Under the pieces are notes generated by a model, which worked only from the letters and a program-made list of their open reading frames with translations, was not told where the DNA came from and searched no databases. A stretch of 64,000 bases of DNA, taken from assembly GCA_016218825.1 (NCBI GenBank), contig JACRCV010000099.1:62001-126000 (forward strand), written 5' to 3'. This document shows positions 3,461 to 37,027 of this stretch, in pieces; the first letter of the stretch is position 1; the number at the start of each line of letters is the position of its first letter. This DNA comes from Deltaproteobacteria bacterium. Its GTDB lineage: Bacteria; Myxococcota; XYA12-FULL-58-9. A program made the position numbers and the translations under genes.

Positions 3461-5851
3461 CTAGGGCGCGACGAAGAGGGTCAGGCCCCAATGCAGCAAG
3501 CGCGTCGTGTTCAGGAAGGTGTCGTCGCTCGCCCATAAGGTCCACGTGCCGCCCAGTGCTTGGCCGTTGAAGGTCGTCAGGTCGCCTTCGGGGCGGTAGC
3601 TCCCGGTGAACGGCGCGGTGCCGAGAGTGATCGACGTCACCGCTGCTTGGTCGAAGATGGTGCCGGTGTAGTTGTCGCCGGCGCCGCCGTTGTCGGTGGA
3701 CAGCTCGACGCAGACGGTGGTGGTGCCGTCGAAGTGCTGCAAGAAGAGATCCAGATCGGTGTCAAAGACGAGGCTCACGTCCACCGACACCACGACGCGG
3801 CCGATGGTTCCGGTGGCGGTCACGACGCGGGAGTCTCCCTGCCACCAGCCGCAGGTGGCGGCACTGCCGCTGCCGTCGGTGATCGCGAGGTTCGGAAACC
3901 AGTCGAGCTGAGTCGGTGGTCCGTCGAAGCCGTCGCAATCCTGGTCGAAGCCGTCCACCGTCAGATCCGGCATGCCGGGGTTGATGCTGGCGTCGGCGTC
4001 GTCGCAGTCGGTCCCCAGGTCGCACAGCGGGCCGTAGCCGTCACTGTCGCCGTCCTGGCCGGCGGTGCCGGCGGTGCACGAGCCGAAGTCCGCCCAGTGC
4101 CAGCCGTCGGTCGGGGCGCAGTCGGTGATGCCGATGTCGCACGCGGGGCCGCGGCCGTCGAAGTCGGGGTCGTCGCAGACGAGGCAGTCGAACCAATGCA
4201 GCTTCGAGCTGTCGTTGCAGTCCTCGCCGTTGCGAATGTTGTAGACGTCGCAGCCGGTGAAGTAGGTGTCACGGTCAGCGTCGACGCAGGTGGCGCAGGA
4301 GAGCCAGTTGTCGGCGTCGGTGTCGAGGCAGTCGGGGCCGGTGACCGTCACGTAGGCGTCGCAGCCACCGAAATAGGTATCGCCGTCCTGGTCGCGACAG
4401 TTGATGCACGCCGCGTTCGTCCAGACGTTGGGGTTGCCGGGGGCGCAGTCGATGGTCCCCAGGTCGCACAGGGTGCCGCGGCCGTCGTTGTCCGGGTCGA
4501 CGCAACGGCCGCAATCGGCCCAGTGGCGGTCGTCGCCGACGTCGCAGTCGCTGCCGAGGTTGCAGCCGGGGCCGCGGCCGTCGCCGTCGCTGTCGACGCA
4601 GGTCAAACAGTCGTTCCAGTGGGCGAGGTCCGAGTCGTTGCAGTCCGGCCCGGTGTGGGCGAAGTAGGCGTTGCAGCCGGCGAAGTAGCCGTCGCCGTCG
4701 CCGTCCAGACAGGCGCCGCAGTTGCTCCAGTTGTCGCGGTCGAAGTCGCTGCAGTCGGGGCCGGCAACGGTCGCATAGGCGTCGCAGTTGCGGTAGTACG
4801 CGTCGCCGTCCAGGTCCCTGCAGGTGGCGCACGCGTCCCAGACGTTGGGGTTGTAGTCGTTGCAGTCGAAGGGGCGACTGACGGTGTAGCGGTCGCAGTC
4901 GGAGTAGTGACCGTCGGCGTCGCGGTCGGCGCACAAGCGGCAACTGTCCCACACCGAGGCCTCGCCGTCGCCGCAGTCCGGGCCCTGGCGGTTGACGTAG
5001 GCGTCGCAGCCGACGAACCACAGATCGCTGTCGGTGTCGACGCAGGTAAAGCAGGACACCCAGTTGTCGGGATCGGAGTCGAGGCAATCGTCACCCATGT
5101 CGCAGCCGACGCCGCGGCCGTCGCGATCGCCGTCGGCGCACGCGCCGCAGCTCTGCCAGTGGTTGGCGTCGGTGTCGTCGCAGTCGGGTCCGGCGCGGAC
5201 CGCGTAGGTGTCGCAGTCGATGAAGTAGCCGTCGTGGTCGCCGTCGCGGCAGGTCTTGCATGAAAGCCAGTTGTCGTCGTCGTCGTCGTCGCAGTCGGCG
5301 CTGTCGAGGACCGGGAAGCGGTCGCAGGCGCCGCGGTGGCCGTCGCCGTCGAGGTCGAGGCAGGTGTTGCAGCTCTGCCAGCTGAGCGGCTCGGCGTCGT
5401 TGCAGTCCGGGCCGCTGTGATCCTGGTAGCGGTCGCAGCCGACGAAGGCGCCGTCCAGGTCCAGATCTTGGCAGGCGCCGCAGCTCGCCCACGCGTCACC
5501 GTTGCCGTCGTCGCAGTCCGAGCCGAAGTTGCAGCCGGGGCCGCGGCCGTCGCCGTCGGCGTCGTCGCAGCGACCGCAGTCCGACCAGTGCTCCGGGGCC
5601 TGGTCGTCGCAGTCGCCGCCGCCGTTGCAGTGGGCGCCGAAACCGTCGCGGTCCAAGTCGACGCAGACGAGACAGTCGTCCCAGTGCCCGGCGTCGGTGT
5701 CGTCACAGTCGCGGCCGTTGCAGCCCGGGCCGTCGCCGTAGGCGTCGCCGTCCTGGTCGATACAAGAGCCGCCGGAGATCGTGCCGCTGCCGCAGCCGGT
5801 CGACAAGATCAAGGAGGCGACGCCCAGAAGCTCAACCGCAGTTCGTCTCAT
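3461..5851 (-). CDS. Asp/Cys/Trp-repeat surface lipoprotein with P-domain-like C-terminus
   Basis: The 796-residue protein has a signal peptide ending ILSTGC, with Cys20 as the likely lipidated residue. Residues about 28-620 hold about 17 tandem units of 32-37 residues built as C-x-D-x-D-x-DG...C...DCxD...W..C, with four Cys and one Trp per unit. The Asp-rich loops resemble thrombospondin type 3 and MopE calcium-binding repeats, and the last unit is the most MopE-like. Residues about 650-796 resemble the P/Homo B domain attached to secreted bacterial proteases (FDTDLDLFLQHFDG, GGTWTLWASDD), but no protease domain is present. A calcium-stabilised, disulfide-rich rod on the cell surface is a reasonable inference. 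The downstream partner is the DUF72 gene. Confidence 0.85.
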   Translation of the reverse strand: MRRTAVELLGVASLILSTGCGSGTISGGSCIDQDGDAYGDGPGCNGRDCDDTDAGHWDDCLVCVDLDRDGFGAHCNGGGDCDDQAPEHWSDCGRCDDADGDGRGPGCNFGSDCDDGNGDAWASCGACQDLDLDGAFVGCDRYQDHSGPDCNDAEPLSWQSCNTCLDLDGDGHRGACDRFPVLDSADCDDDDDDNWLSCKTCRDGDHDGYFIDCDTYAVRAGPDCDDTDANHWQSCGACADGDRDGRGVGCDMGDDCLDSDPDNWVSCFTCVDTDSDLWFVGCDAYVNRQGPDCGDGEASVWDSCRLCADRDADGHYSDCDRYTVSRPFDCNDYNPNVWDACATCRDLDGDAYYRNCDAYATVAGPDCSDFDRDNWSNCGACLDGDGDGYFAGCNAYFAHTGPDCNDSDLAHWNDCLTCVDSDGDGRGPGCNLGSDCDVGDDRHWADCGRCVDPDNDGRGTLCDLGTIDCAPGNPNVWTNAACINCRDQDGDTYFGGCDAYVTVTGPDCLDTDADNWLSCATCVDADRDTYFTGCDVYNIRNGEDCNDSSKLHWFDCLVCDDPDFDGRGPACDIGITDCAPTDGWHWADFGSCTAGTAGQDGDSDGYGPLCDLGTDCDDADASINPGMPDLTVDGFDQDCDGFDGPPTQLDWFPNLAITDGSGSAATCGWWQGDSRVVTATGTIGRVVVSVDVSLVFDTDLDLFLQHFDGTTTVCVELSTDNGGAGDNYTGTIFDQAAVTSITLGTAPFTGSYRPEGDLTTFNGQALGGTWTLWASDDTFLNTTRLLHWGLTLFVAP

Positions 5852-5856
5852 GGGTT

Positions 5857-5879
5857 CCTCCCGCGACCGCTCTCGCGGG
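5857..5879 (-). promoter_or_regulatory. Leader hairpin overlapping the ribosome binding site of the repeat lipoprotein
   Basis: A 7-bp perfect inverted repeat (5860-5866 with 5873-5879, 6-base loop) lies just upstream of the minus-strand start at 5851. The minus-strand Shine-Dalgarno sequence GGGAGG covers 5862-5857, so three of its bases sit in the stem. In RNA this could partly hide the ribosome site. It may equally be chance in GC-rich DNA. Confidence 0.3.
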
Positions 5880-6019
5880 TCACGAATCCCTTCGTATAGC
5901 GAAAGCGCCGCCGACTGTCACGGCCGCGCCCGAATACGTCACGACCGTGGGTTGAGTTGCGCGCCGATCCGAGGTACGGGTGTGGCTCTGGGGAACTCTG
6001 AACCGTGAGGAGTGAAGCG

Positions 6020-7180
6020 ATGAGGCCTACGAGAGCCGTATGGCTGGTGATGGCGATGAGCGTCATCGGCGCGTGTTCCACTGACACCGACACCACCCAC
6101 CAGCCCCTGTTCGACAACGGCGTCAACGTGTTCGAGGCGCAGGTGATCGACGGCCAGGTCGGCGCGGTGATCACCAACGCGACGATCACCATCCAGGTCG
6201 GCCGGCACCTGATGCAGGCCAACAACGACAACGGGTTCTACTCGGTCTACGGCATCCCCTATGGCACGTTCCGGATCCTGGTGAGCGCGCCGGGCTACAA
6301 TGACTTCCAGGCCATGAAGGCGTTCACCGCCGCCGGTCAATTCGCCAGCCTCGCCAACGGCGACCCCATGGTCTACTACTTCAACAACGTGTTGATGTAC
6401 CCCTTGGGCCACGCGCCGGGGGACGTGAAGGTGTCGGTGTACGACAGCCGCGACGGCGCCGCGGTGCGGGGCGCCACCGTGGCCGCGACCCTGTCGCAGG
6501 TGACCCAGCTCATCAACCTCACCGACGTGCTCTTGCCCACCATCGGTTACACCCCGTCGACGATGGTGGCGACGACCGACGCCGACGGCAAGGTCAGCTT
6601 CGCCTCGGCCAACCTCATCATGGGCGCGACCTACGACGTCGACGTGTTCGGGGCGCTCGACGCCGACGGCGTCTACCTGGTGCCGGACACCGCCAGCCAG
6701 GTCAAGGTCGGCTATGCGCTCCAAGACCTCGTGGTCTTCCTCGACCGGCCGGTGCTGGTCCCGGTCGCGGTGATGACGAACAACGAGGACAACACTCTGT
6801 TGGTGTCGGAGCTCGTGGTGACCTTCCCGTACGCCGTCGAGATCTGCAACGCCGCCACCAACCACACCTGGTCGAACACCACCGACAACCACGGCGCGCC
6901 GTTCAGCGACGACACCGACGGCGACGGCGTCTTCGCGGCGATGGCGCCAACCAACCCGGTGGGCGCGGCGCTGTCGGTGAACGACACCGTGTTGACCATG
7001 ACCTACGCCGCGCAGAACGACGACGTCGGCGACGATCTCTGGGTCACCTTCTCGGGCCTGACGGTGAAGCCGCGCGGCGCCTCGGACTCGAGCTGCACGT
7101 CCCTGACGTCGGTGAAGCTCCGGACGATCACCGGCGGCGCGACCATCGACACCGAGATCCACGTCCGCGACGTGCCGTAG
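6020..7180 (+). CDS. Lipoprotein with carboxypeptidase regulatory-like domain
   Basis: The start is placed at ATG 6020, which has GAGGAG at 6007-6012 seven bases upstream; the in-frame GTG at 6005 has no such site. The 386-residue product begins with a classic lipoprotein signal (SVIGAC, Cys19). Residues about 35-90 form a carboxypeptidase regulatory-like beta sandwich (GRHLMQANNDNGFYSVYGIP), and a second similar segment follows at about 140-210. The C-terminal part is beta-rich with an Asp-rich DDTDGDGVF loop. A periplasmic or surface binding role is plausible. The gene lies 39 bases upstream of an outer-membrane barrel gene and may be co-expressed with it. Confidence 0.8.
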   Translation: MRPTRAVWLVMAMSVIGACSTDTDTTHQPLFDNGVNVFEAQVIDGQVGAVITNATITIQVGRHLMQANNDNGFYSVYGIPYGTFRILVSAPGYNDFQAMKAFTAAGQFASLANGDPMVYYFNNVLMYPLGHAPGDVKVSVYDSRDGAAVRGATVAATLSQVTQLINLTDVLLPTIGYTPSTMVATTDADGKVSFASANLIMGATYDVDVFGALDADGVYLVPDTASQVKVGYALQDLVVFLDRPVLVPVAVMTNNEDNTLLVSELVVTFPYAVEICNAATNHTWSNTTDNHGAPFSDDTDGDGVFAAMAPTNPVGAALSVNDTVLTMTYAAQNDDVGDDLWVTFSGLTVKPRGASDSSCTSLTSVKLRTITGGATIDTEIHVRDVP

Positions 7181-7219
7181 CCGCGGTCGACCACGATTCG
7201 TTAGCAGGAAGGGATCAAG

Positions 7220-25086: not shown

Positions 25087-25935
25087 CTAGAGATCGATCT
25101 TGGCCAGGCGCCTTGCGGCGAGGCCCGCCGGCACGACGATCCAGAACAGCACCGAGGCGCAAAGCGCCAGCGCCGCGATCCCGCCGCCACCGGTGAAGCG
25201 CAGGAACGCGAGCGACGCCGACCCGAACGCGGCGGTGCCGACGACGCTGAGCAGCGCCGCGGTGCGCACCGCGGCGACCGGGTTGACGATCACCGCGACG
25301 ATCAGCACCCGGGAGGCGATGCCCGACGGTAAGAGCGACGCGACGCCGAGCGCGGCGACGTCGAAGAGCACCGTGGTGACGAACCAGGTGACGATGGCAG
25401 CCGCGAGGCCCTGCACCCGCCGGCCACCGCTGACGACGACGGTGACAAAGGCCGCCAGGGCGAGGAACACCGCGCTGAGGGCGAGGCCGGCGCCGACCAG
25501 GGTCGCGTAGTCGCCGAGGCCGTGGTCGCCGGCGTTGGCGAAGATCACGATCCCGGCCAGGCCGAAGCCCACCGCCTCCGCGGCGCCGAGCGCGACGAAC
25601 AGCCCCGCGAGCTTGCCCAAGAGAATGATCGGGCGGGACAACGGCTGCGAGAACAACAGCTCGGAGCTGCCGGGCTCGAAGCTGAGCGACAGCACCCCCA
25701 TCAGCAGCGCCGCGAGCGGCACGAGCAGCGTCAACAGCTCGACCTGCGAGGCGCTGGTGCGGGCGAAGTCTTGAAAGCCGTAGCCGCCGGAGAGCACGTA
25801 CCCCGAGATCGCGACCCCGAGGGAGAGCGCCGCGAACGTGCCGGCGAAGATCTGCGTCCAGCGCGAGCGCACCGCCAACAAGAGCTCGTGGCGCGCCACC
25901 AACAGCAGCGCCCGCCCGGGCGACAACAGCGTCAT
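25087..25935 (-). CDS. nosY: ABC transporter permease of the Nos maturation system (NosY-like)
   Basis: The start at ATG 25935 overlaps the nosL-like stop by ATGA; longer upstream frames are shadows of nosL. The 282-residue product has about six membrane helices and the ABC-2 permease block FEPGSSELLFSQPLSRP. With NosF it forms an inner-membrane ABC complex that works with NosD in assembling the CuZ site of nitrous oxide reductase. It is the last gene of the nos operon. Confidence 0.88.
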   Translation of the reverse strand: MTLLSPGRALLLVARHELLLAVRSRWTQIFAGTFAALSLGVAISGYVLSGGYGFQDFARTSASQVELLTLLVPLAALLMGVLSLSFEPGSSELLFSQPLSRPIILLGKLAGLFVALGAAEAVGFGLAGIVIFANAGDHGLGDYATLVGAGLALSAVFLALAAFVTVVVSGGRRVQGLAAAIVTWFVTTVLFDVAALGVASLLPSGIASRVLIVAVIVNPVAAVRTAALLSVVGTAAFGSASLAFLRFTGGGGIAALALCASVLFWIVVPAGLAARRLAKIDL

Positions 25936-26384
25936 CGGCGCTCCGGCGCCGCCGCGCCGCCAAAGAGCTCCACGGGGCTGACGTTCGTGCCGTTGTTGCC
26001 GGCGGCGTCCAGATCCCTCGAGGCCGGGTCGCGGTGCGCGATGAGATGCGACGCCATCGGCGTCCACAGCTCCGGGACGCGACTGTAGGTCGCTCGCCAT
26101 GCTGCGACCCAGCTCTTGTCGCGGTGGTCGGCGACGTAGGCGACGCTCGCGGTCGCGAGCCTCGGGGTCTTCTTCAGGTAGGCGGCGAGGCAGCCGAGGT
26201 CGTCGAAGAAGCGCGGCTCCTCGCCGGGCGCCACGATCTGCGCCGCGAACCGGGCGTCGGAGACTCGCATCCGGCAGAACGCGCACTCCTCGTTGCGGGT
26301 GTCGAGCGCCGCGGGCGCGGGCGGGGTGCGGGCGCAGGCGAGCGCCAACAGACAGCTGACGGCGATGACAGGGCGACACCTCAT
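25932..26384 (-). CDS. nosL: NosL copper chaperone lipoprotein
   Basis: The 150-residue protein begins with a lipoprotein signal (LLALAC, Cys17). Mature sequence ECAFCRMRVSD carries the CxxCxM-type copper site of NosL, and FFDDLGCLAAYL is a second family block. NosL delivers Cu(I) for CuZ assembly in NosZ. It overlaps nosF upstream and nosY downstream by four bases each, so the three genes are translationally coupled. Confidence 0.9.
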   Translation of the reverse strand: MRCRPVIAVSCLLALACARTPPAPAALDTRNEECAFCRMRVSDARFAAQIVAPGEEPRFFDDLGCLAAYLKKTPRLATASVAYVADHRDKSWVAAWRATYSRVPELWTPMASHLIAHRDPASRDLDAAGNNGTNVSPVELFGGAAAPERR

Positions 26385-27280
26385 GGGCTCTTCCGGATCA
26401 AGTCCTGGTACAGGTCCTCGAGACGGCCCTCGTCGGCGGCGAGGCTCGAGATCTGAGCGCCGGCCCCACGCACGACCTCGAGCGCGGCGGCGCGGGCCTC
26501 GGGCGACCCGGAGATCACGACCTCGCGGCCCTGGAAACGAGCGCCCGGGACCGCCCGCCTGACATCGTCTTCGAGCCCGGGGCTCGAGGCGCCGACGCCG
26601 ACGCGCAGCACGCCGCAAGCGGCGACGCGGGTCACGAGCTCCTTGCGGCTCAGGTCGGCGACCAGCCGGCCGTCCACGAGGATCGCCACCCGGTCGGCGA
26701 GCGCCTCGACGTCGGCGAGCTGGTGCGAGGTGAACAACAGGGTGCGGCCGCTCTGGCGCTGGGCCTCGGCGGCGGCGTAGAAGGTCGCCATGCCGGCTTG
26801 ATCCAAGGCCGCGGTCGGCTCGTCGAGCAGCAACAGCGGCGCCTCGGCGATGAGCGCCACCGCCAGGCCGAGCCGTTGCCGCATCCCGCCGGAGTAGGTG
26901 CCGACCGCGCGCGCCGCGGTGTCGTCGAGGGCGACCTGCCGCAACACCGCCGGGATTCGGGACGCCGGTCGCCGGCGCAGCCCGCGGTACAGCTCCAGGA
27001 CCTCGAAGCCGGAGAGCGAGTCGGGAAACGTCACCCGTTGCGGCAGGAACGCGAGCGCCGCGCGCGCCGCGGCGCTGGACGCCGCGAGCCGAGCGGCGCC
27101 GATGACGACGCTGCCCTTCGAGGGCTGCAGCAGACCGGCGGCGGCTTTGAGGCAGGTGGTCTTGCCGGAGCCGTTCGGGCCGAGCAGGGCGACGACCTCC
27201 CCCGGCTGCACCGCGAGGCTGAAGGCGTCGACCGCGGTCACCGCGCCGAAGGTCTTCGAGAAGGAGTCGAAGGCGATCAC
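26381..27280 (-). CDS. nosF: ABC transporter ATPase of the Nos maturation system (NosF-like)
   Basis: The 299-residue ATPase has Walker A GPNGSGKTT, signature YSGGMRQRLGLAVAL, Walker B LLLLDEPTAALD and the switch His in FTSHQ. Its place between nosD and nosL-nosY identifies it as NosF. The start overlaps the nosD stop by four bases. It should power the NosY permease during copper-sulfur cluster assembly. Confidence 0.9.
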   Translation of the reverse strand: MIAFDSFSKTFGAVTAVDAFSLAVQPGEVVALLGPNGSGKTTCLKAAAGLLQPSKGSVVIGAARLAASSAAARAALAFLPQRVTFPDSLSGFEVLELYRGLRRRPASRIPAVLRQVALDDTAARAVGTYSGGMRQRLGLAVALIAEAPLLLLDEPTAALDQAGMATFYAAAEAQRQSGRTLLFTSHQLADVEALADRVAILVDGRLVADLSRKELVTRVAACGVLRVGVGASSPGLEDDVRRAVPGARFQGREVVISGSPEARAAALEVVRGAGAQISSLAADEGRLEDLYQDLIRKSP

Positions 27281-28656
27281 GGCGCCCTTCTCCGAGCGCG
27301 GCGGCGACCGCCGGGGGCGAGGATCCAGGCACCGCCGAGCACGAGGGCGAGCGCGGCGCCGAGGTTGGTGGCCGATGGTCCGCCGCCGCCCTTCCCCGGG
27401 CGCGGCACGGCGTCGAGACGGGGCGGGCGGGTCAGGGGTGCCGGGTCGCGGACGGTCGAGACCGCGAGCACCGGGAACGAGCGCTCGGCGGCGGCGAGGG
27501 CGCGGGCGGCGAGGCTTTGGGCCATCAGATCGGCGGCGGTGAGATTGCCGCGCAGGTGGTCGAAGAGGCTCGAGAGCACGTAGGGGCGGTCGCTGTGGCC
27601 GTCGCCGTCCAGGTCGGGCTCGTCGTTCTCCGACCAGTAGTTGCCGGCGAAGACGGTGTCGGTCCGGCGGCCGACGAGGTAGAGGGGCGAGAGGTTGCCC
27701 AAGAAGACGTTGCCGCTGATCTCATTCGCGCCGCACGAGTCGTAGAGGACGATGGCGGCGTCGGCCTCGGCGATGACGTTTCGGCGGAGGACATTGCGGT
27801 AGCTGCCCTCGAGGAAGATGCCGCGGGCGTTGTCGGCGATCAGGTTGTCTTCGGCCACCGAGTCGTCGCAGGCCTTGAACAACAGGCCCACGGACGCGAA
27901 GCCGCGGTTGTGCATGATCTGGTTTCTGCGGAGCACGATGCGCCGCGAGTACATCAGCACCGCGCCGGCGTCGGTGTCCTCGAAGCGGTTGTCTTCGAAC
28001 TGGTTGTCGTCGGAGTACATGTAGTGCAGGCCGTAGCGCACCTCGCGGGTGGTGTTGCCGCGGACCACGCCGTTTGCCGACGACTGGATGTAGATCCCAT
28101 CCCGGGTGAGCGCGATGTCGTTGTCGACGAGCGCGAAGCCGGTGGTGTCGAAGACGTGCAGGCCCGAGCCCTTCTCGCCCGGCTCTTTGCCGGCGTCGCC
28201 GCGGATCACGTTGCCTTCGAGCCGCGCGCCGTCCGCCGCACGGAGGTAGATGCCGAAGAGGGTGTTCTGGATCCGGCAATCGCGGATCACGGCGTCGAAC
28301 GCGGCGACGTGGACCCCGGAGGCGTCGCGGCCGAGATCGCCGCCGCCACGGCCGTCGATGTCGAAGCCCTCGAGGATCACCCCCGCGGCCCGGATGCGGA
28401 CGACGCTGCCTCGCCCCGAGCCCGAGAGCAACGGCCGGCCCTGTCCTTTGAGGGTCAGCGGTCGATCAACGTAGAGGTCGCCGTCGTAGGTGCCGGCCTC
28501 GACGACCACGACCGAGCGCGCGGCCGCGGCGTCGATGCGGGCTTGCAGCGGCGAGCGCTCCTGGTCGGTGGGCCGGCCCTCGAGGCTGCCGGTCGGAGCC
28601 ACCGGCATCTCGAGCGCGGTGACCACGAGGCACGCGACCAGGACCGGCGCCGTCAT
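27277..28656 (-). CDS. nosD: NosD copper-cluster maturation protein
   Basis: The 459-residue protein has an N-terminal signal and a right-handed beta-helix of the NosD/CASH type, with repeated short rungs such as FGIYLRAADGARLEGN, DGIYIQSS and RGIFLEGS. The block VGRRTDTVFAGNYWSEND is typical of NosD. A C-terminal membrane helix and Arg-rich tail follow a Pro-rich linker. NosD is the periplasmic partner of NosFY in CuZ biogenesis. It overlaps the upstream NosB-like gene by four bases. Confidence 0.93.
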   Translation of the reverse strand: MTAPVLVACLVVTALEMPVAPTGSLEGRPTDQERSPLQARIDAAAARSVVVVEAGTYDGDLYVDRPLTLKGQGRPLLSGSGRGSVVRIRAAGVILEGFDIDGRGGGDLGRDASGVHVAAFDAVIRDCRIQNTLFGIYLRAADGARLEGNVIRGDAGKEPGEKGSGLHVFDTTGFALVDNDIALTRDGIYIQSSANGVVRGNTTREVRYGLHYMYSDDNQFEDNRFEDTDAGAVLMYSRRIVLRRNQIMHNRGFASVGLLFKACDDSVAEDNLIADNARGIFLEGSYRNVLRRNVIAEADAAIVLYDSCGANEISGNVFLGNLSPLYLVGRRTDTVFAGNYWSENDEPDLDGDGHSDRPYVLSSLFDHLRGNLTAADLMAQSLAARALAAAERSFPVLAVSTVRDPAPLTRPPRLDAVPRPGKGGGGPSATNLGAALALVLGGAWILAPGGRRRARRRAP

Positions 28657-29291
28657 TGGGAAGGAACGGCCGCCACGTCACGGCGCCGCCAGGCCACGAA
28701 CAGGGCGGCGACGAGGCAGGCGCCGGCAGCCGCGAGCGCGTAGGTCGCCGGGCCGGGGTACGAGTAGACCTCGAAGTTCGCGAGCTGTTTGTAGCCGAAG
28801 AAGGGCGGCGTGAACGGCCCAACCTTCACCGCCGCACTAGGATCGAGGTGATGGCCGTAGGCATAGAGCTTGTAGGCGAACGACCCCATGCCGTAGAGGC
28901 TGAAGTAGCCGAACAGCGCTACCAGGTCGATCAGGTGGCCGAGCCGGCCGAGCACCGCCGCCCGCAAGAACAGGATGACGAGCCCGCCGATCATGAACGG
29001 CATCCACTTGAACTCGTCGAAGTCCTCGGTCGCGATCTCGCGCATGCCGATGTAGTGGTTCAGGAGGTTGATCTCCTTGGCGTCCTGGCCACCGCGACCG
29101 CTGTCGAGCTTGTGCGAGTAGATCGAGAGCTCGAGGCCGTCGGGATACTGCGGCGCGAACATCGTCATCTTCCAGAGAGGGGTGAAGAGCGCCGGCAGCA
29201 GGCACACGGCGGCGGCGAGGACCAGGCCCCGGGGGACGAGCCCCTGCGGTGCGTCGAGGGTTCCAGGGAGCAAAGTGAGCGAGCGCCACAT
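28653..29291 (-). CDS. NosB-like membrane protein of clade II nos operons
   Basis: The 212-residue protein has four membrane helices (about residues 23-42, 96-114, 118-140 and 182-204). Between helices 1 and 2 is the block PLWKMTMFAPQYPDGLELSI followed by LNHYIGM, which I associate with the small membrane protein encoded directly after nosZ in clade II nos clusters (NosB). Its function is not settled. Position between nosZ and nosD and coupling to nosD support the call. Confidence 0.8.
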   Translation of the reverse strand: MWRSLTLLPGTLDAPQGLVPRGLVLAAAVCLLPALFTPLWKMTMFAPQYPDGLELSIYSHKLDSGRGGQDAKEINLLNHYIGMREIATEDFDEFKWMPFMIGGLVILFLRAAVLGRLGHLIDLVALFGYFSLYGMGSFAYKLYAYGHHLDPSAAVKVGPFTPPFFGYKQLANFEVYSYPGPATYALAAAGACLVAALFVAWRRRDVAAVPSQ

Positions 29292-29360
29292 GGTTTCCTC
29301 TTCGGCACCGCGAGGGGGGCTCGTGAAGCCCCCGGCAGCGCTGGTGATGGTCAGAGACTC

Positions 29361-31229
29361 TCAGCCGCGCGGCTTGACGACCAGGTACCCCTGCATTTCC
29401 TGGTGTAGCGCCGAGCAGAAGTTGGTGCAGTAGTACGGGAACACGCCGGCGTTTTGGACCTTGAAGGTCACGGTCTTGGTCTCGCCGGGATCGACGACGA
29501 TGTTGATGTTGTAGTCGAGGATCGCGAAGCCGTGCAGCTCGTCGGTGGTCTGCTCGATGTTGGTGAGCGCCACGGTCACGGTGTCGCCCTGCTTCACCTC
29601 GAACGCGGTCGGGGTGAGGGTGGAGCGCACCGCGACCATCTTCACCGTGACCTTGTCGCCGCTGCGCGTCAGGCCGGCGTCCTTGACGTCCCAGATCGCG
29701 AGCGGGTGCTTGTTCTCTTCTTTGGGGTAGACCTCGATCGGGTGGACCTTGTCGGCCTTGATCATCTGGGCGTAGTGCGGCTCGGGCTCGGTGAAGGCGT
29801 CGTAGACCAGCTTCATCTTCTCCTCGGTGATGTCGACGAGCTGTGACGACTCCGGCTGCGACGGGCCCACCGGCAGATGTCGGCCGTGCGACAGCTTGTT
29901 CAAGCCGACGAGCCATTTGCCGTCCGGCGACACGGTGTCGCCCTCGGCGGCGCACAGGTGGCCGATGGAGTAGGACATCGGCACCTTGTCGACGACCTCC
30001 CAGGTGCCGAGCTTCCACTTGGCGATGGCGCTGTCGACGAAGAGCGAGGTGTAGGCGAAGCCGTCCGGGCCGAACTGGGTGTGCAGCGGCCCCAGGCCCA
30101 CCGGCACCTCGGCGTCCTTGATCGACTCGTACTTCAACACCGGGATGCCGTCCTCGTCGCCGGTGAAGTCCTTGTTGCGGATCGCGGTCGCGATCTTCTC
30201 GAAGTTGAAGACCGTGGTGACGCCTTGCAGCTTGCCCGAGCCGACGACGTACTTGCCGTCGGGGGAGACGTCGACGCCGTGCGGGGACTTGCCGCACGGC
30301 ATCAGGTAGACGAGGCCCGGCACCTTGGCGGGGTCGAGGACCTTGACGCCGCCGATCAGGTCGCCCTTGCCTTCGGCCGCGGCCTTCTCCGCGTCGCGCC
30401 AGTTGATGGCGGCGATGTAGTCGCGGTCGCGCTGGGTGCTCGTGACCTCGAGCTTGCCGGTGGCGCGCTCCGAGTTGTACGCGGTGAGGAACATCCAGCC
30501 GTCGGACGCCAGTTTGCCGGCGTCACCCAGGTCCCAGTCGAAGGGCGGCAGCAGGATCTCGAAACCCAGCGACATCGTGCCCGACTGCGGATCGATCTTG
30601 ATGCCGGCGACGACGCCCTTGTAGAGGCTCGCGTACTTGTCGACGTCGACGGCGGTGCCCTTGGGGATCGGGATCGAGAACCGCGACGCCATCATCGAGT
30701 ACTCGGTGTTCGGGGTGACGAACGCCGAGGCGTGGTTGCCGGAGATGTTGGGGATCGGGCCCAAGATCTGCTTGGTCTTGAAGTCGCGCAGATCGATGCG
30801 GGCCAGCCGGCCGTTCATCTCGTTGACGAACAGCCAGCGGCCGTCATAGTCGCCTTTGGTCTCGGAGAGCGAGGGGTGGTGGACGTCGCCCCAGGTGAGA
30901 CCGCCGAGCATCTTCTTGGAGTCGTCGTCGAAGCCGTAGCCGGTCGCCGGATAAGGGGTGAACACCGGGATCGTCGACAGGTGGCGCATCGACGGCACGC
31001 CGTAGACGTAGACCTGACCCGAGTGGCCGCCGGACGAGAACAGGTAGTACTCGTCGAGGTCGCCGGGCGCGACGTAGGTCTTCTGCGCCGCGATCGCCAC
31101 GTCGGACACCGGCGTCATGCTCTTGGCGCGCTGCGGGGCGCTCGGGGCGCAGTGGCCGAAGACCACCGCGACGAGCAGCAGGGCTGCGACGCTCGCCAGT
31201 TGGATCAGGCTCTTCTTGGACATCTTCAT
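29361..31229 (-). CDS. nosZ: Nitrous oxide reductase, clade II (Sec-dependent)
   Basis: The 622-residue enzyme reduces N2O to N2. The N-terminus (KKSLIQLASVAALLLV) is a Sec-type signal with no twin-arginine motif, the hallmark of clade II; it ends FGHC, so Cys27 might be lipidated, although His at -1 is not canonical. The seven-bladed propeller supplies CuZ ligands that I place at His117, 118, 166, 317, 383, 424 and 485. The C-terminal cupredoxin has a complete CuA site: His566, Cys601, Cys605, His609 and Met612 (YYCTNFCSALHQEM). It is preceded by a cytochrome bc-like module and followed by maturation genes in one operon. Confidence 0.97.
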   Translation of the reverse strand: MKMSKKSLIQLASVAALLLVAVVFGHCAPSAPQRAKSMTPVSDVAIAAQKTYVAPGDLDEYYLFSSGGHSGQVYVYGVPSMRHLSTIPVFTPYPATGYGFDDDSKKMLGGLTWGDVHHPSLSETKGDYDGRWLFVNEMNGRLARIDLRDFKTKQILGPIPNISGNHASAFVTPNTEYSMMASRFSIPIPKGTAVDVDKYASLYKGVVAGIKIDPQSGTMSLGFEILLPPFDWDLGDAGKLASDGWMFLTAYNSERATGKLEVTSTQRDRDYIAAINWRDAEKAAAEGKGDLIGGVKVLDPAKVPGLVYLMPCGKSPHGVDVSPDGKYVVGSGKLQGVTTVFNFEKIATAIRNKDFTGDEDGIPVLKYESIKDAEVPVGLGPLHTQFGPDGFAYTSLFVDSAIAKWKLGTWEVVDKVPMSYSIGHLCAAEGDTVSPDGKWLVGLNKLSHGRHLPVGPSQPESSQLVDITEEKMKLVYDAFTEPEPHYAQMIKADKVHPIEVYPKEENKHPLAIWDVKDAGLTRSGDKVTVKMVAVRSTLTPTAFEVKQGDTVTVALTNIEQTTDELHGFAILDYNINIVVDPGETKTVTFKVQNAGVFPYYCTNFCSALHQEMQGYLVVKPRG

Positions 31230-31255
31230 CGTCGACTCCCCTTCCTTGAATTGGG

Positions 31256-32482
31256 TCAGTGGGCGCCAGCGGCGCCCGGTTTTTCACGCTGGGTCTTGTT
31301 GTGCTCGGCGAAGGCTTCGCGCAGCTTCTGGATCGCGATGCCTCGTTCTTCCGGGGTCAAGATGATCTGGCGCGACAACACCACCGCCATGGTGCCGGTG
31401 GGCGCGGCCAGGAAGTCGTCGAGGGTGCGACCGAAGCGGGACTGCACGTCCTCGACCGCGGTCGACAGATCCGGTCCGATCTGCGCCGGGCTGCGGACGT
31501 TGAACGCGCCGATCGAATGACAGACGAAGCAGCCGGTCTTGACGAACCACGCCCCCGGCCCGGACTTCATCTGCTCCTCGGCCTGCACTTCTTCCGCGGT
31601 CTGCGGATCGGTGCGCGGCGCGCCCGCCAAGAACGACGCCGCGACCGGCGCCCGGCGCCAGGACAAGATCAACATCGCCAGCGCCTGCGCCTCGGTGGTC
31701 GTCAAGTGGAAGTTCGGCATCACCGAGTCGGAGACCAGGGCGCGCGGATCTTTGAGGTGCGCCACGTGCCAGGCGAACGAGGTGTGCTGCCCCATCAAGC
31801 GGGTGTGGTCGTACTGCTCCGGCGCCTTGTCGCCGACGAAGGTCAGGTCCGGGCCGATGCCGCCGCCGCGGCCGTTCACCACGTGGCAGGCGCGACAGCC
31901 CTTGTCCTTGATGAGCTGCTTGCCGAGGTTGATGGCCTCGGCGCCGGCGGTCTCGCGGTCGAAGCGATGGCAGACGTTGCAGCTCATCTGCAACAGCGCC
32001 GCCTTGTTGCCGGCGAGCGAGTACTGCTCGCCGAGGCCGCGGCTCAAGAGCGGCTCCTCCCAGTGCGCCACCTGGCCGTGCGCGGCGTCGACGTCGATCG
32101 CGTAGCCCTGGCCGCCGTGGCAGGCGGTGCAGCCGAAGCGCTCCGGCGGATGCGCCTTGAGGATGGCGCTCGGGTGGGTGCGAAACGGCTCCGCGGCGGT
32201 CTCGAAGCCTTTGAAGCTGACCGCCTGGTGGCAGATGATGCAGCGATCGGCGCGCTTCAGGTCGGGCACCCAGATCTGTGACAGCCCCCCGGGCAAGGTC
32301 GCCGCCTTGTCCTCGCCGAGCTTCTGCGCCACGAGCTCTTTGAACATCGCCTGGTAGTAGCGGTAGTCGTGGGCCTGGTCGCTGCGGATGAAGAGCACCG
32401 TCGACACGACGAGCGCCAGGCCGACGATCGCCAGCGCCAAACGATCCCGGCCGCGGAATGGGGCGCGACTGAGGCGTTCCAT
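31256..32482 (-). CDS. Membrane-anchored pentahaem cytochrome c of the nos operon
   Basis: The 408-residue protein has one N-terminal membrane helix (about residues 15-33) and five CxxCH haem motifs at about residues 81, 118, 168, 196 and 318. The stretches around motif 4 (GCRACHVVNGRGGGIGPDL) and motif 5 resemble monohaem cytochrome c domains; the first three motifs form a separate multihaem module. It sits between cytochrome b and nosZ, so it probably receives electrons from the Rieske/cytochrome b pair and passes them to the CuA site of NosZ. Confidence 0.92.
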   Translation of the reverse strand: MERLSRAPFRGRDRLALAIVGLALVVSTVLFIRSDQAHDYRYYQAMFKELVAQKLGEDKAATLPGGLSQIWVPDLKRADRCIICHQAVSFKGFETAAEPFRTHPSAILKAHPPERFGCTACHGGQGYAIDVDAAHGQVAHWEEPLLSRGLGEQYSLAGNKAALLQMSCNVCHRFDRETAGAEAINLGKQLIKDKGCRACHVVNGRGGGIGPDLTFVGDKAPEQYDHTRLMGQHTSFAWHVAHLKDPRALVSDSVMPNFHLTTTEAQALAMLILSWRRAPVAASFLAGAPRTDPQTAEEVQAEEQMKSGPGAWFVKTGCFVCHSIGAFNVRSPAQIGPDLSTAVEDVQSRFGRTLDDFLAAPTGTMAVVLSRQIILTPEERGIAIQKLREAFAEHNKTQREKPGAAGAH

Positions 32483-32483
32483 C

Positions 32484-33848
32484 TCAGATCCTCCCCGGGA
32501 TTTCCGGCCACGCCTGCCAGGGCCAGAAGAAGTGCCAATAGGGGCCGCGCAAGAAGGTGCCGACGATGGTCAGCGCCAGCACCAAGGCGACGAGGAGGAG
32601 GAACACCAGGTTCTGGCGCCGGCGGTCGGCGGCGAACCAGACGCCGGTCGAGGTCTTGGCGCTACGGTCGAGCCACGGCCAGACCGACAGCAGCACGACG
32701 AGCAGGCCCGGGAGCAGCACGCCGCCGATCAGGGCGCCGTTCACCGTGAACGCGCCGAGCTTGATCGTGGTGTCGGTGACCACCTCCTGGAGCCAGAGGA
32801 AATACCAAGGCGCTTTGGCGGGGTTCGGGGTCACGAGGGCGTTCGCCGGCTCTTCGAGCGGCGAGGCGATGAACACCGCCAGGATGCTGATGATCGCGAA
32901 GGTGCCGAGCACCGCGATCGCGATCCGCCGGCTGAGGTCGGGCACCGAGTTGACGGTGGTGTCTTCGGCCTCGATGCTGGTCGCGACGATCTTCGGCGAG
33001 GTGCCGCGGGCGACGCCGAGCAGGGTGTAGGTCTTGGTGGGCTCGGTGACCGGGTGGGCGGCGGTCGTGGCCTCGAGATCGACCACCGCCAGGCCGCCGT
33101 CCTTGCGGATGCGCCACATGTGGTAGGCGAACAGCAGCAAGAGCAGGCCCGGCAGCGCCACGACGTGCAGCGCGTAGAAGCGGATCAAGGTCGGCTGGTC
33201 GATGACCCGGCCGCCGAGCAACAGCTCGCGGATCTTGGCGCCGACGACGGGCACCGACGACGCGATGTTGGTGCCGACGGTGATCGCCCAATAGGCCAGC
33301 TGGTCCCAGGGCAACAGGTAGCCGGTGAAGCTCAAGAACAAGGTGACGAGCAGCATCGCGACGCCGACCAGCCAGTTCCACTCCCGCCGCTGTCCCTGGC
33401 CGATGCCGTTCTTGTAGGCGCCGGTCAGGAACACCCGCATCAGGTGCAGGACCACCGCGATCACCATCGCGTGCGCCGAGAGGCGGTGCACCGCCCGGAT
33501 CCAGGAGCCGAAGGTGATCACGTACTCGATGTCCTTCACCGAGGCGTAGGCGCGCTCCACCGACGGCACGTGCAAGAACATCAGCGGCAGGCCGGAGACC
33601 GTCAGCAGCAACAACAGCGCCGCCGAGATCGTGCCCAGCCACAGCGAGTAGCGGACGTCGAGCGAGCGTTTGCAGCTCTTGGCCGCGAACGCGTGCAGCA
33701 GGAAGTTGGAGACCACGGCGTCGCCGGCCTGGCGATCGGAGGCCGGCCGCAGGCTCCAGAAGCTCGAGCGGTGCACGCCCGGGGCGGTCGGGGGCTGCTG
33801 CGGGGTCGGAAGTGGAGCGTCGGCCACGGCGTTCTCCTTGGCTCGCAT
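32484..33848 (-). CDS. Cytochrome b of a bc-type quinol oxidising complex
   Basis: The start at ATG 33848 shares one base with the Rieske stop (TGATG). The 454-residue protein combines a cytochrome b6-like N-terminal half, with paired haem-ligand His in two helices (HRLSAHAMVIAVVLH and HVVALPGLLLLLFAYH), and a subunit IV-like half with APWYFLWLQEVV in place of PEWY. About eight or nine helices are visible. It should oxidise quinol with the Rieske protein and feed the pentahaem cytochrome. Confidence 0.92.
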   Translation of the reverse strand: MRAKENAVADAPLPTPQQPPTAPGVHRSSFWSLRPASDRQAGDAVVSNFLLHAFAAKSCKRSLDVRYSLWLGTISAALLLLLTVSGLPLMFLHVPSVERAYASVKDIEYVITFGSWIRAVHRLSAHAMVIAVVLHLMRVFLTGAYKNGIGQGQRREWNWLVGVAMLLVTLFLSFTGYLLPWDQLAYWAITVGTNIASSVPVVGAKIRELLLGGRVIDQPTLIRFYALHVVALPGLLLLLFAYHMWRIRKDGGLAVVDLEATTAAHPVTEPTKTYTLLGVARGTSPKIVATSIEAEDTTVNSVPDLSRRIAIAVLGTFAIISILAVFIASPLEEPANALVTPNPAKAPWYFLWLQEVVTDTTIKLGAFTVNGALIGGVLLPGLLVVLLSVWPWLDRSAKTSTGVWFAADRRRQNLVFLLLVALVLALTIVGTFLRGPYWHFFWPWQAWPEIPGRI

Positions 33849-34354
33849 CAGGCGATCGTGAGGCGGAAGTCGTGCGGCACCGGCTTCGCGAGGTCGACGA
33901 CCAGCTGGCCGTCGTCGGCGGCGATCGACAGCTCGTACCAGGCGAGCGGTGTCGGCGCCGGGCCCTCGGTGTTGACCCCGTCGCCGCTGTACGCCGAGCC
34001 GTGGCACGGGCACTTGAAGGCGTGCGTCAACAGCAGCTCGCCGTTGCCGACCACCTTGGTCTCCGGGCGGGGGAGGGCCTCGGCGCGGACCGTGCAGCCC
34101 AGGTGGGTGCAGACCGCGGAGATCGCGTGGAAGGTCTTGCCGCTGCGGAACACGAACAGCCGTTGTTCGGGCAGGAACTTCATGCCGTCGGGGAGCTCGA
34201 GGGGCATGCCGAGCTTCACGGTGGTCGGCGGATCGTAGGAGACGTTCGGGCCGAGCGACCGCAGCGCCGCGGCCCCTTGGGCGCCGAGCGCCACCAGGCC
34301 GGCGCCGATGCCGACCGACATCATGAACTCGCGGCGATCTTTGGTCTCGGTCAT
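33848..34354 (-). CDS. Rieske iron-sulfur protein
   Basis: The 168-residue protein has Rieske cluster motifs CTHLGC (Cys82, His84, Cys87) and CPCHGS (Cys115, Cys117, His118). The N-terminus has DRREFMMS followed by a hydrophobic helix, a twin-arginine-like anchor as usual for Rieske proteins. It is translationally coupled to cytochrome b and sits 13 bases after the FAD/Fe-S oxidoreductase gene. Confidence 0.94.
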   Translation of the reverse strand: MTETKDRREFMMSVGIGAGLVALGAQGAAALRSLGPNVSYDPPTTVKLGMPLELPDGMKFLPEQRLFVFRSGKTFHAISAVCTHLGCTVRAEALPRPETKVVGNGELLLTHAFKCPCHGSAYSGDGVNTEGPAPTPLAWYELSIAADDGQLVVDLAKPVPHDFRLTIA

Positions 34355-34367
34355 CGCGGCCGTCCTC

Positions 34368-36296
34368 CTACGCCTGGGCTCGTGGTTCGCCCTGCAAACG
34401 CTCGGTGATCGCGAAGCGCTCCATCGTCATCGCGTCGGTCGGGCAGCGGATCGCGCACAGACCGCAACGGATGCAGCGGCTGTCGTCCTTGATCATCGCC
34501 GCCAGGGGCGCGCTGCCGTCTCCGGCCGCGTGCGCGAGCCGGGCGGCGTCACTCGCGGGCAGGGCGAGGGCCGCGAACGGCACGAGCGCCAGGCAGTGCT
34601 CGGGGCAGACGTCGACGCAGCGGCTGCAGAGCACGCACTTCTCCGGGTCGTAGATCGTCTGCACGTGGCAGTTGAGGCAGCGGGCCGCCTGGGCGCGCGC
34701 CGCGGCGTCTTCGAAGCCGGACTCGACCTCGCTGATGCCGGTGCGGCGGTCGAGGCTCAACGTCGGTGGGCTCCGGCGGTCGATGAGCTCGAAGCCGGCG
34801 ATGGTCCGATAGCTGCGGGTCGGGATCTTCTCGACCGCGATGGTGGCGCGCCGCTCGGCGGTCTCGCCGGAGAGGTAGTCGTGGATCGAGCGCGCCGCCT
34901 GTTTGCCGTTCTGCACCGCCTCGATGAGGTTCCTCGGGCCGAAGGCGACGTCGCCGCCGGCGAAGATCCCTGTGGCCGAGGTCGCGAGCGTCGCCGGATC
35001 GACCTTGATGGTGCCGGCGGCGGTGAGCTCGATCTGATCGGCGGCGGTGAGAAACGACAGGTCCGGACACTGGCCGATCGCCAGGATGCAGGTGTCGGCG
35101 GCGACCTCGGTCACGTCGGCGTCGTCATAGGTCGGCGCGAAGCGGCCGCCGGGGTCGAACACCGAGCGCACCCTGCGGAGCTCGACGGCCTTCAGGCGGG
35201 TGTCGCCGAGGAAACGCTTCGGCCCCTGGCGGGTGACGAAGCGCACCCCTTCGCGTTTGGCCTCCTCGAACTCGTCGTGCCCTTGGGTCGACTTGAGCAC
35301 CGGCATCTCGGCGAAGGTCTCGAGCGAGACGACGGTCACGTCGCGCGCCCCGGCGCGCAGCGCGGCGCGGGCCGAGTCGAAGGCCTCCTGCAGGCGCGCG
35401 GTCCCGGGAGATGCCGCCGCCAGGCGCGCCGCCTCGTCCTCGCCGACGCGGAGCGCGGTGCGGGCGGCGTCGAAGGCGACGAAGCCGCCGCCGATGACGA
35501 CCACGTTGCGGCCGAGCTCCATGCGGTAGCCGCGGTTGGCGTTCAGCAGATAGTCGACGGCGCGCACCACGCCGTCGATCTCGGCCCCCGGCAGCGCCAG
35601 CTCGCGGCCCTTCTGCACCCCGACCGCGAGGAACACCGCCTCGTAGCCGTCGCGCTTCAGCGCCGCGAGGCCGGAGCTCGACGTTAGCCCGGTCTTCAGG
35701 CGGAGCTCGACGCCCAGCCCCAGGATCTGGTCGATCTCGGCGCGGATCAGGGCTCGCGGCAAGCGGTACTCGGGGATACCGTAGCGCATCATGCCGCCGG
35801 GCTCGTCACCGGCCTCGAACACCGTGACCTGATAGCCGAGGTGCGCCAGGTCGTGGGCCGCGGCCAGACCCGCCGGCCCGGCGCCGACCACCGCGACCTT
35901 GCGCTTCTTCGCCTGGGGTCCGAGCGGTGTCGTCGGCAGATGGCCGGCGTAGCGGTTGCCCTCGGCGACCAGCGCGTGCCGCAGCTGGTCCTGGGTCTCG
36001 GGGTGGAGCGACTCGGCGCCGAACTTCTCGGTGAGCGAGCGCTTCAGGGCGCGGATCGCCACCGGCGCGTCGATGCGCCGCCGCCGGCAGGCGTCCTCGC
36101 ACGGCGCGGCGCACACCCGGCCGCAGACCGAGGCGAAGGGGTTCGGGGCCCGGGCGACGAGAAACGCTTCTTCATCTCTGCCCGCGGCGATGAGCTGGGC
36201 GTAGCGGCCGGCGTCGGTCTGCACCGGGCAGCCGGCTTGGCAGCTGACCTGCGCCTTCCATGCTTCCAGATCGGGGAGCCGCACCGGGATGCCCAT
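34368..36296 (-). CDS. GltD-like FAD/NAD(P) oxidoreductase with N- and C-terminal Fe-S domains
   Basis: The 642-residue protein heads the nos operon. The N-terminal domain has the GltD-type Cys set (Cys19, 23, 58, 62, 66, 70). The FAD fold VVGAGPAGLAAAHDL starts at about residue 136 and a NAD(P) fold VVVIGGGFVAFDAARTAL lies at about 262. The last 105 residues hold a ferredoxin-like domain with Cys clusters at 540-568 and 608-618, fitting at least two 4Fe-4S clusters. No signal peptide is visible, so it is cytoplasmic. It could pass electrons between NAD(P)H, ferredoxin and a membrane acceptor. Its presence in a nos operon is unusual in my reading. Confidence 0.88.
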   Translation of the reverse strand: MGIPVRLPDLEAWKAQVSCQAGCPVQTDAGRYAQLIAAGRDEEAFLVARAPNPFASVCGRVCAAPCEDACRRRRIDAPVAIRALKRSLTEKFGAESLHPETQDQLRHALVAEGNRYAGHLPTTPLGPQAKKRKVAVVGAGPAGLAAAHDLAHLGYQVTVFEAGDEPGGMMRYGIPEYRLPRALIRAEIDQILGLGVELRLKTGLTSSSGLAALKRDGYEAVFLAVGVQKGRELALPGAEIDGVVRAVDYLLNANRGYRMELGRNVVVIGGGFVAFDAARTALRVGEDEAARLAAASPGTARLQEAFDSARAALRAGARDVTVVSLETFAEMPVLKSTQGHDEFEEAKREGVRFVTRQGPKRFLGDTRLKAVELRRVRSVFDPGGRFAPTYDDADVTEVAADTCILAIGQCPDLSFLTAADQIELTAAGTIKVDPATLATSATGIFAGGDVAFGPRNLIEAVQNGKQAARSIHDYLSGETAERRATIAVEKIPTRSYRTIAGFELIDRRSPPTLSLDRRTGISEVESGFEDAAARAQAARCLNCHVQTIYDPEKCVLCSRCVDVCPEHCLALVPFAALALPASDAARLAHAAGDGSAPLAAMIKDDSRCIRCGLCAIRCPTDAMTMERFAITERLQGEPRAQA

Positions 36297-36320
36297 GAGC
36301 GCGCGTTTCCTGGTTGTAAG

Positions 36321-36334
36321 TTAGCGCTCACTAA
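36321..36334. promoter_or_regulatory. Palindromic TetR-type operator between nos operon and regulator
   Basis: The 14-bp sequence TTAGCGCTCACTAA has half-sites TTAGCGC and TTAGTGA in inverted order. It lies in the 41-base gap between the divergent starts at 36296 and 36338, three bases before the regulator ATG. This form and place are typical of a TetR-family autoregulatory operator, and binding would also cover the nos operon promoter. Confidence 0.7.
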
Positions 36335-36337
36335 CAT

Positions 36338-37027
36338 ATGACCGCACCCGTGTCGAGAGCCCTGACCCGCCGCAAGCCCACCGCCGCGAGGCGTCACGAG
36401 ATCGCCGAGGCGGCGCTCGATCTGATCGCGGCGCGCGGTGTCGCCGAGTTCACCGCGATGGGGGTGGCGCGGGCCGTCGGCCTCAGCGACGCGGCGCTGT
36501 TTCGCCACTTCGACAGCATGGAGTCGATCGTGCAGGAGGTGATCGACAGGGTCGACAAGATCTTGTTCGCCGGGTTCCCGCCGCACGACGCCGACCCGCT
36601 CGTCCGCCTGCAGCGCTTCTTCGGCCACCGCGTCGAGATCATGCGCCGGCACCCCGGGGTCGCGCGCCTCGTGGCGTCGGACATCCTGGCGACCCTGGCG
36701 CCGCCGGCGGCAGCGCTGCAGGTCCGGAGCTTCAAGCGCCGGTCGTTGGAGTTCATCCGCGCCTGCGTCGTCGAGGCGCGGCAGAAGGGCAGGCTCGAAG
36801 GGTTGGGCGTCGACGAAGTCTGCGTGCTGGTGGTGGGGTCGATCCACGCGCTGACGCAGAGGGCCTGGTCGATGCAACCGTCGCCGCCGTCGCCGGCGCT
36901 GGCGGCGCGGGTGTGGGCGGCGCTGCAGCGAACGTTCGACGCCGGGCGCGCCGGGCGCGTCGTTATTGCTGCAACGCCAGCGCCGCGATCTGGTCGGCGG
37001 CGCCGCCCAAGATCGACGAGCCGATGA
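36338..37027 (+). CDS. TetR family transcriptional regulator
   Basis: The 229-residue protein has an N-terminal TetR helix-turn-helix (residues about 15-62: ARRHEIAEAALDLIAARGVA, with MGVARAVGLSDAALFRHF as the recognition part). The C-terminal ligand domain resembles other TetR proteins but gives no ligand. It is divergent from the nos operon and next to the palindrome at 36321-36334, so it probably represses itself and the nos genes. The 3' end overlaps the convergent gene at 36963-38339 by 65 bases. Confidence 0.88.
   Translation: MTAPVSRALTRRKPTAARRHEIAEAALDLIAARGVAEFTAMGVARAVGLSDAALFRHFDSMESIVQEVIDRVDKILFAGFPPHDADPLVRLQRFFGHRVEIMRRHPGVARLVASDILATLAPPAAALQVRSFKRRSLEFIRACVVEARQKGRLEGLGVDEVCVLVVGSIHALTQRAWSMQPSPPSPALAARVWAALQRTFDAGRAGRVVIAATPAPRSGRRRRPRSTSR

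Follow-up and report, generated by a model that had tools for sequence, protein, structure and literature searches.

In the 64,000-nucleotide stretch of DNA analysed here (the window), ten co-directional genes lie on the minus strand from position 36296 to 25087, as closely packed as the initial annotation had described. The intergenic distances are, in gene order, +13, -1, +1, +26, +69, -4, -4, -4 and -4 bases, that is, no gap exceeds 69 bases and five overlaps of 1-4 bases are present. The first gene encodes a GltD-like Fe-S flavoprotein of 642 amino acids (34368..36296). It is followed by the genes of a Rieske [2Fe-2S] protein of 168 amino acids (33848..34354), recognized by a family match and a PDB profile match; of a cytochrome b in which b6 and subunit IV are fused (32484..33848; family match, seven predicted transmembrane segments); and of a membrane-anchored pentahaem cytochrome c of 408 amino acids (31256..32482) with five CxxCH motifs. 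The N2O reductase NosZ comes next (29361..31229). It scored 901.7 bits against the model of the Sec-type enzymes, TIGR04246 (cut-off 625), and is thus a Sec-dependent, clade II NosZ; its CuA motif reads C601-x3-C-x3-H-x2-M612. The distal genes encode a NosB-like membrane protein of 212 amino acids (28653..29291), NosD (27277..28656; TIGR04247), the ABC ATPase NosF (26381..27280; ABC family match), the copper chaperone NosL (25932..26384; family match) and the permease NosY (25087..25935; ABC2 family match). A family-library search gave no match for the NosB-like protein, which was identified by its conserved position after nosZ in orthologous loci.

A TetR-like regulator, recognized by eye from the HTH N-terminus of its translation, is encoded divergently on the plus strand (36338..37027). 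An imperfect 22-base palindrome, TGTAAGTTAGCGCTCACTAACA (36315..36336), lies between it and gltD and is a probable operator. In the gap between nosZ and nosB, positions 29315-29333 can form a 7-bp GC stem with a 5-base loop and no T run; this hairpin may act in mRNA processing or stability.

The GltD-like flavoprotein

The domains of the flavoprotein are those originally noted: an N-terminal Fer4_20 domain (residues 17-92) with cysteines C19, C23, C58, C62, C66 and C70, a Pyr_redox_2 domain (residues 133-464), an FAD site, an NAD site and a C-terminal 2x[4Fe-4S] region. Neither a signal peptide nor a transmembrane segment was predicted in it; by this criterion the protein is soluble and cytoplasmic, whereas NosZ, the Rieske protein and the cytochrome c are exported. 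In NADPH-dependent GltD and Nfn enzymes the second Rossmann strand is followed by two arginines that bind the phosphate of NADP. These are absent here, and Glu326 stands where the NADPH enzymes have RR. The SLE triplet at 324-326 was invariant among 18 GltD-like sequences, and SLE or CLE took the place of the NADPH-type YRR in every inspected GltD sequence but that of locus L164. Since a conserved glutamate replaces the NADPH-binding arginines, the protein is predicted to use NAD(H).

NfnABC matched the flavoprotein both by sequence and by fold. The fold match was obtained with an AlphaFold model built with distant rows (pLDDT 73), which was used for fold matching only; a model built from 18 similar rows had a low pLDDT of 64.

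Rieske protein, cytochrome b and cytochrome c

The Rieske protein has a Tat-like RREF N-terminus. Its Ser120 and Tyr122, residues discussed as raising the redox potential, are invariant in the orthologues of the operon and mark it as a putative high-potential type. When a profile of the operon's Rieske proteins was compared with the PDB, the closest chains were Kuste4569 (9rk4) and Kustd1480 (9rk3), with E values of 1.5e-21 and 1e-20. These belong to two Rieske/cytochrome b complexes of Kuenenia that include a cytoplasmic NAD(P) oxidoreductase (PMC12954380).

The Qo motif of cytochrome b is KAPWY, and its subunit IV part has apparently three transmembrane helices rather than five. In an alignment, the cysteine of haem cN was found in none of 50 GltD-linked cytochrome b proteins; it was present in nine of 21 cytochromes b from complexes lacking GltD, these nine being closely related and not an independent sample. 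His52, at the position of the histidine proposed to hold an interface haem b in Kuenenia, is invariant, and the His-Arg spacing is 196 versus 204 in the interface-haem comparison with Kuenenia. We considered this histidine as a marker of GltD-linked complexes and discarded it, as GltD-less complexes also carry it. The cytochrome c has an N-terminal membrane anchor in addition to its five haem motifs. Rieske, cytochrome b and cytochrome c genes are thus present, as expected of the bc module initially annotated; because the c protein is a pentahaem cytochrome, however, their sequences do not describe a classical bc1.

Linkage of the operon to nosZ

We scanned GTDB species genomes with the flavoprotein as the query; the taxonomic counts given here follow the phylum grouping of that genome set. 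Orthologues 66-71% identical to the query were found in Anaeromyxobacter and Acidobacteriota, together with two more distant ones (about 52%). The order gltD-Rieske-cytb-cytc-nosZ-nosB-D-F-L-Y was kept in the orthologous loci wherever the length of the contig allowed and is repeated in about 25 loci of other genomes; in 16 of the 24 orthologous loci the gltD and Rieske genes share exactly 4 bases. Among the 195 genomes of the window's phylum, 38 have nosZ and 10 have the nos-type gltD, which in every case lies upstream of nosZ on the same strand. Among the 347 genomes of the acidobacterial phylum the corresponding figures are 39 and 20; in 19 of these 20 gltD stands 3.2-3.9 kb before nosZ, and the contig of the twentieth stops inside nosZ. 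The nos-type gltD therefore lies upstream of nosZ in all 30 cases from 542 Myxococcota and Acidobacteriota genomes, which is the survey of nosZ neighbourhoods that the initial annotation had proposed. An order recurring in about 25 loci and in 30 of 30 genomes with the orthologue is far beyond chance, and the arrangement is a conserved variant of Anaeromyxobacteraceae and Acidobacteriota. The idea of a distinct electron-supply variant is upheld: within this NosZ clade the linkage of the flavoprotein gene to nosZ is strict.

In phylogenetic trees the nos-type flavoproteins formed one clade (support 100/100), and their NosZ partners came from a single region of the NosZ tree, within which a nested group of three has no such gltD gene. 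The nos-type gltD is missing from about half or more of the clade II nosZ genomes surveyed. As nosZ was absent from the sampled relatives of the window genome in its genus, family and order, and the NosZ proteins of Myxococcota and Acidobacteriota interleave in the tree, a transfer is suggested. A locus from an 'Acidimicrobiia' MAG (L025) was considered as a spread to Actinomycetota and rejected, since its genome groups in the acidobacterial phylum; the name of the record looks wrong.

Two further loci are worth recording. A one-contig genome of 311,743 bases (0.31 Mb; 33% GC; L101, G175:C1) carries a clade II nos cluster; it is possibly a reduced endosymbiont, and its grouping in the window's phylum looks odd. 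Another locus (L103, G016:C527, 5336-9398) holds a tandem pair of nosZ-like genes, the first 30% identical to the NosZ of the window.

The module away from nosZ

Lower-scoring GltD homologues were found in many genomes, never close to nosZ. In 27 of the 29 such loci inspected, gltD is flanked by Rieske and cytochrome b genes; the exceptions are L152, with a recognizable Rieske gene only, and L144, a 9.6 kb contig with neither. The set of gltD, Rieske, cytochrome b and multihaem c genes recurs beside oxidases and molybdoenzymes: a cbb3 oxidase (CcoN/CcoO) in nine of the 29 loci, a DMSO-reductase-type-II/NarG-like molybdoenzyme in five and, in the window's own genome (L089), a NapA/Fdh-like Tat molybdoenzyme that follows an octahaem cytochrome. 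In the remaining loci no terminal enzyme was recognized. Because the set recurs without NosZ beside other terminal enzymes, the distribution of the genes assigns the GltD-like protein to the Rieske/cytochrome b module and not to NosZ; what had been treated as two additions to the nos cluster, a flavoprotein and bc genes, is one module.

This bears on the proposal that the flavoprotein acts for NosZ directly, for instance in the reductive activation of CuZ. The strict linkage to nosZ in this clade speaks for it, but the module is found without NosZ in many genomes, and the oxidases and molybdoenzymes with which it also works contain no CuZ; moreover, the flavoprotein is cytoplasmic and NosZ exported, and about half or more of the surveyed clade II nosZ genomes lack gltD. 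We rejected CuZ activation as the main role of the protein and regard it as highly improbable.

Rieske/cytochrome b complexes without GltD exist in the same phyla, so GltD would be an optional subunit. A third Rieske/cytochrome b/multihaem c complex of the window's genome (L139, G000:C18, 6626-9800) has no gltD gene. That the core functions without GltD could also mean that the flavoprotein associates only loosely with it, as a cytoplasmic regulator or assembly factor acting in redox sensing or in Fe-S or haem insertion, with electrons flowing only from quinol through the Rieske protein and cytochrome c to NosZ. The motifs that bind FAD, NAD and at least three clusters are, however, fully conserved over 642 amino acids at 66-71% identity, and because of this conservation catalysis fits better than assembly. 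We consider such a regulatory or assembly role distinctly unlikely.

Upstream of GltD-Rieske modules without a recognized terminal enzyme we also observed a protein of ~450-490 amino acids with a FARKY/FARRY..TSC motif and one CxxCH (L141, L145, L147, L159 and L163; also L137). The copy in L137, from the window's own genome, lies at 3556-4866, and several of these loci also encode a secreted protein of ~190-200 amino acids.

Other electron-supply genes in the genome

Neither NosR (FMN_bind plus polyferredoxin, the supply of clade I) nor the Wolinella-type nosG and nosH were found in the cluster, and no NosR, Fer4_5 match or FMN_bind protein (as in NosR, NosH or NapH) occurs anywhere in the window. 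The reported absence of NosR, NosG and NosH thus holds for the operon and the window and fails for the genome, which encodes fused NapH-NapG-like polyferredoxins at two places, G000:C5:94 kb and C98:36 kb; immediately upstream of the second one an FMN_bind protein is encoded. In this second locus (L134, G000:C98:30000-42000) the FMN_bind protein, with a DAVTGAT motif (6489-7190), and the polyferredoxin (4927-7170) are encoded in that order on the minus strand, a pair whose sequences resemble a NosR split in two. The initial annotation had taken nosG/nosH elsewhere in the genome, if required, as evidence against its reading; of this, the presence of NosGH-like proteins is what we found. Complex I genes are also present in the genome.

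Discussion

From these data we infer a physical complex, an electron path and a direction of flow. The products of the first four genes would form one membrane complex around a b6-like Rieske/cytochrome b core, with the pentahaem cytochrome c facing the periplasm and the GltD Fe-S flavoprotein docked at the cytoplasmic face. The complex would oxidize (mena)quinol and bifurcate its electrons: the first would pass through the Rieske protein and the pentahaem cytochrome to NosZ, reducing N2O as the high-potential sink, and the second through the b haems, the Fe-S chain of GltD and its FAD to NAD+ as the low-potential sink. N2O respiration would in this way pay for the uphill formation of NADH, as proposed for the Kuenenia complexes. 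The N2O/N2 couple, at about +1.35 V, offers ample driving force. To move electrons from menaquinol (-70 mV) to NAD+ (-320 mV), 250 mV are required (PMC12954380).

Several observations led us to this proposal: GltD accompanies the Rieske/cytochrome b set rather than NosZ; the nos-type gltD is always linked to nosZ and overlaps the Rieske gene in most loci; the serine and tyrosine of the Rieske protein are invariant; GltD resembles NfnABC in sequence and fold, as Kuste4570 does; and the SLE/CLE motif predicts NAD(H). As GltD has no signal or transmembrane segment while its partners are exported, electrons would have to cross via cytochrome b. Other observations argue against bifurcation: the cysteine for the haem cN of the Kuenenia models is missing, the interface-haem histidine is not diagnostic, the subunit IV part appears to have three helices and not five, and in heterotrophs the need for quinol-driven NADH is less evident. 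Weighing both sides, we judge quinol bifurcation about equally likely to be right or wrong.

The same anatomy fits a flow in the reverse direction, in which GltD would oxidize NADH or reduced ferredoxin and deliver electrons through cytochrome b to the quinone pool or to cytochrome c and NosZ, supplementing the electron supply when much N2O is available. This is the NAD(P)H or ferredoxin route initially suggested; gltD being the first gene, the cytoplasmic location and the NAD-type site agree with it, and Glu326 makes NAD(H) the likely nucleotide, donation to N2O being only possible. However, given the complex I genes of this genome, simple electron transfer from NADH to quinone would be redundant, and such a route would waste energy, as Hauser et al. 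also argue against it in Kuenenia (PMC12954380). Because the Kuenenia relatives are proposed to reduce NAD(P)+ and complex I genes cover the ordinary NADH-to-quinone step, flow from NAD(H) to N2O is less favoured, and we consider it rather unlikely. Returning to quinol bifurcation, a broader and more tentative suggestion is somewhat likelier to fail than to hold: a family of quinol-bifurcating Rieske/cytochrome b complexes with a GltD-type NAD subunit may be widespread in soil Acidobacteriota and Myxococcota, with terminal acceptors as varied as N2O, O2 and the substrates of molybdoenzymes, N2O reduction driving NAD+ reduction in the nos version.

In this operon of a soil bacterium, the enzyme that breaks down the greenhouse gas N2O is joined to a putative membrane electron-transfer complex with an unusual NAD-binding subunit. 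In 61 of 172 soil samples, clade II nosZ of Acidobacteriota ranked first in dominance among the nosZ groups (PMC13122619); in our survey, the version led by gltD is found in 20 of 39 acidobacterial genomes with nosZ. We found no description of the electron route to these GltD-linked NosZ enzymes in the literature searched; if NADH is made from quinol, the energy balance of N2O respiration differs in these organisms. The NAD(P)H-forming Rieske/cytochrome b complexes of anammox bacteria are a proposal, and because the operon is present in culturable Anaeromyxobacter, isolates carrying it offer a pure-culture system to test the NAD-linked design.

Clade II nos clusters have already been figured with the labels 'Fe-S, Rieske, cyt-b, cyt-c' (PMC11096178, PMC13122619); in the texts of these two papers the possibility that the flavoprotein is an NAD-linked subunit is not raised. 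Our literature search found no naming of the flavoprotein beside nosZ, and an earlier mention is possible. Wolinella succinogenes, in the account of Hein et al. 2017 as given in PMC11388526, has a clade II nos system with NosG, C1, C2, H and Rieske/cytochrome bc proteins. As far as that account goes, it shares clade II NosZ, NosB and Rieske/cytochrome bc in N2O respiration with the window operon, which in contrast lacks NosG and NosH and has the GltD subunit and a pentahaem c. The GltD subunit has the fold and cofactor layout of the NfnABC, StnABC and NADPH-GltD flavoproteins; these differ from the window's module in being soluble, in having NADPH-type arginines and in flavin-based bifurcation with a second flavoprotein, which is not found here.

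By sequence comparison, the closest known systems are Kuste4569-4574 (R/b-3) and Kustd1480-1485 (R/b-2) of Kuenenia stuttgartiensis, the homology test resting on the Rieske proteins and on the shared structural match to NfnABC, which was reported for Kuste4570 (PMC12954380). These complexes are proposed to send one part of the electrons from quinol to nitrite and the other to NAD(P)+ (PMC12954380). Common to both are a Rieske protein, a b6-like cytochrome b with subunit IV, a multihaem c in place of cytochrome f, an NAD(P) oxidoreductase with Fe-S clusters and an NfnABC-like fold, and a terminal reductase gene in the cluster. The terminal enzyme is NosZ here and a HAO-like octahaem protein in Kuenenia. 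Unlike in Kuenenia, cytochrome b and a three-helix subunit IV are fused in the window operon, the cysteine of haem cN is missing, an NAD-type residue is predicted and gltD is the first gene. In this clade II nos operon the leading genes thus form a Rieske/cytochrome b module of the Kuenenia kind with a predicted link to NAD, a design that has until now been considered chiefly in anammox bacteria.
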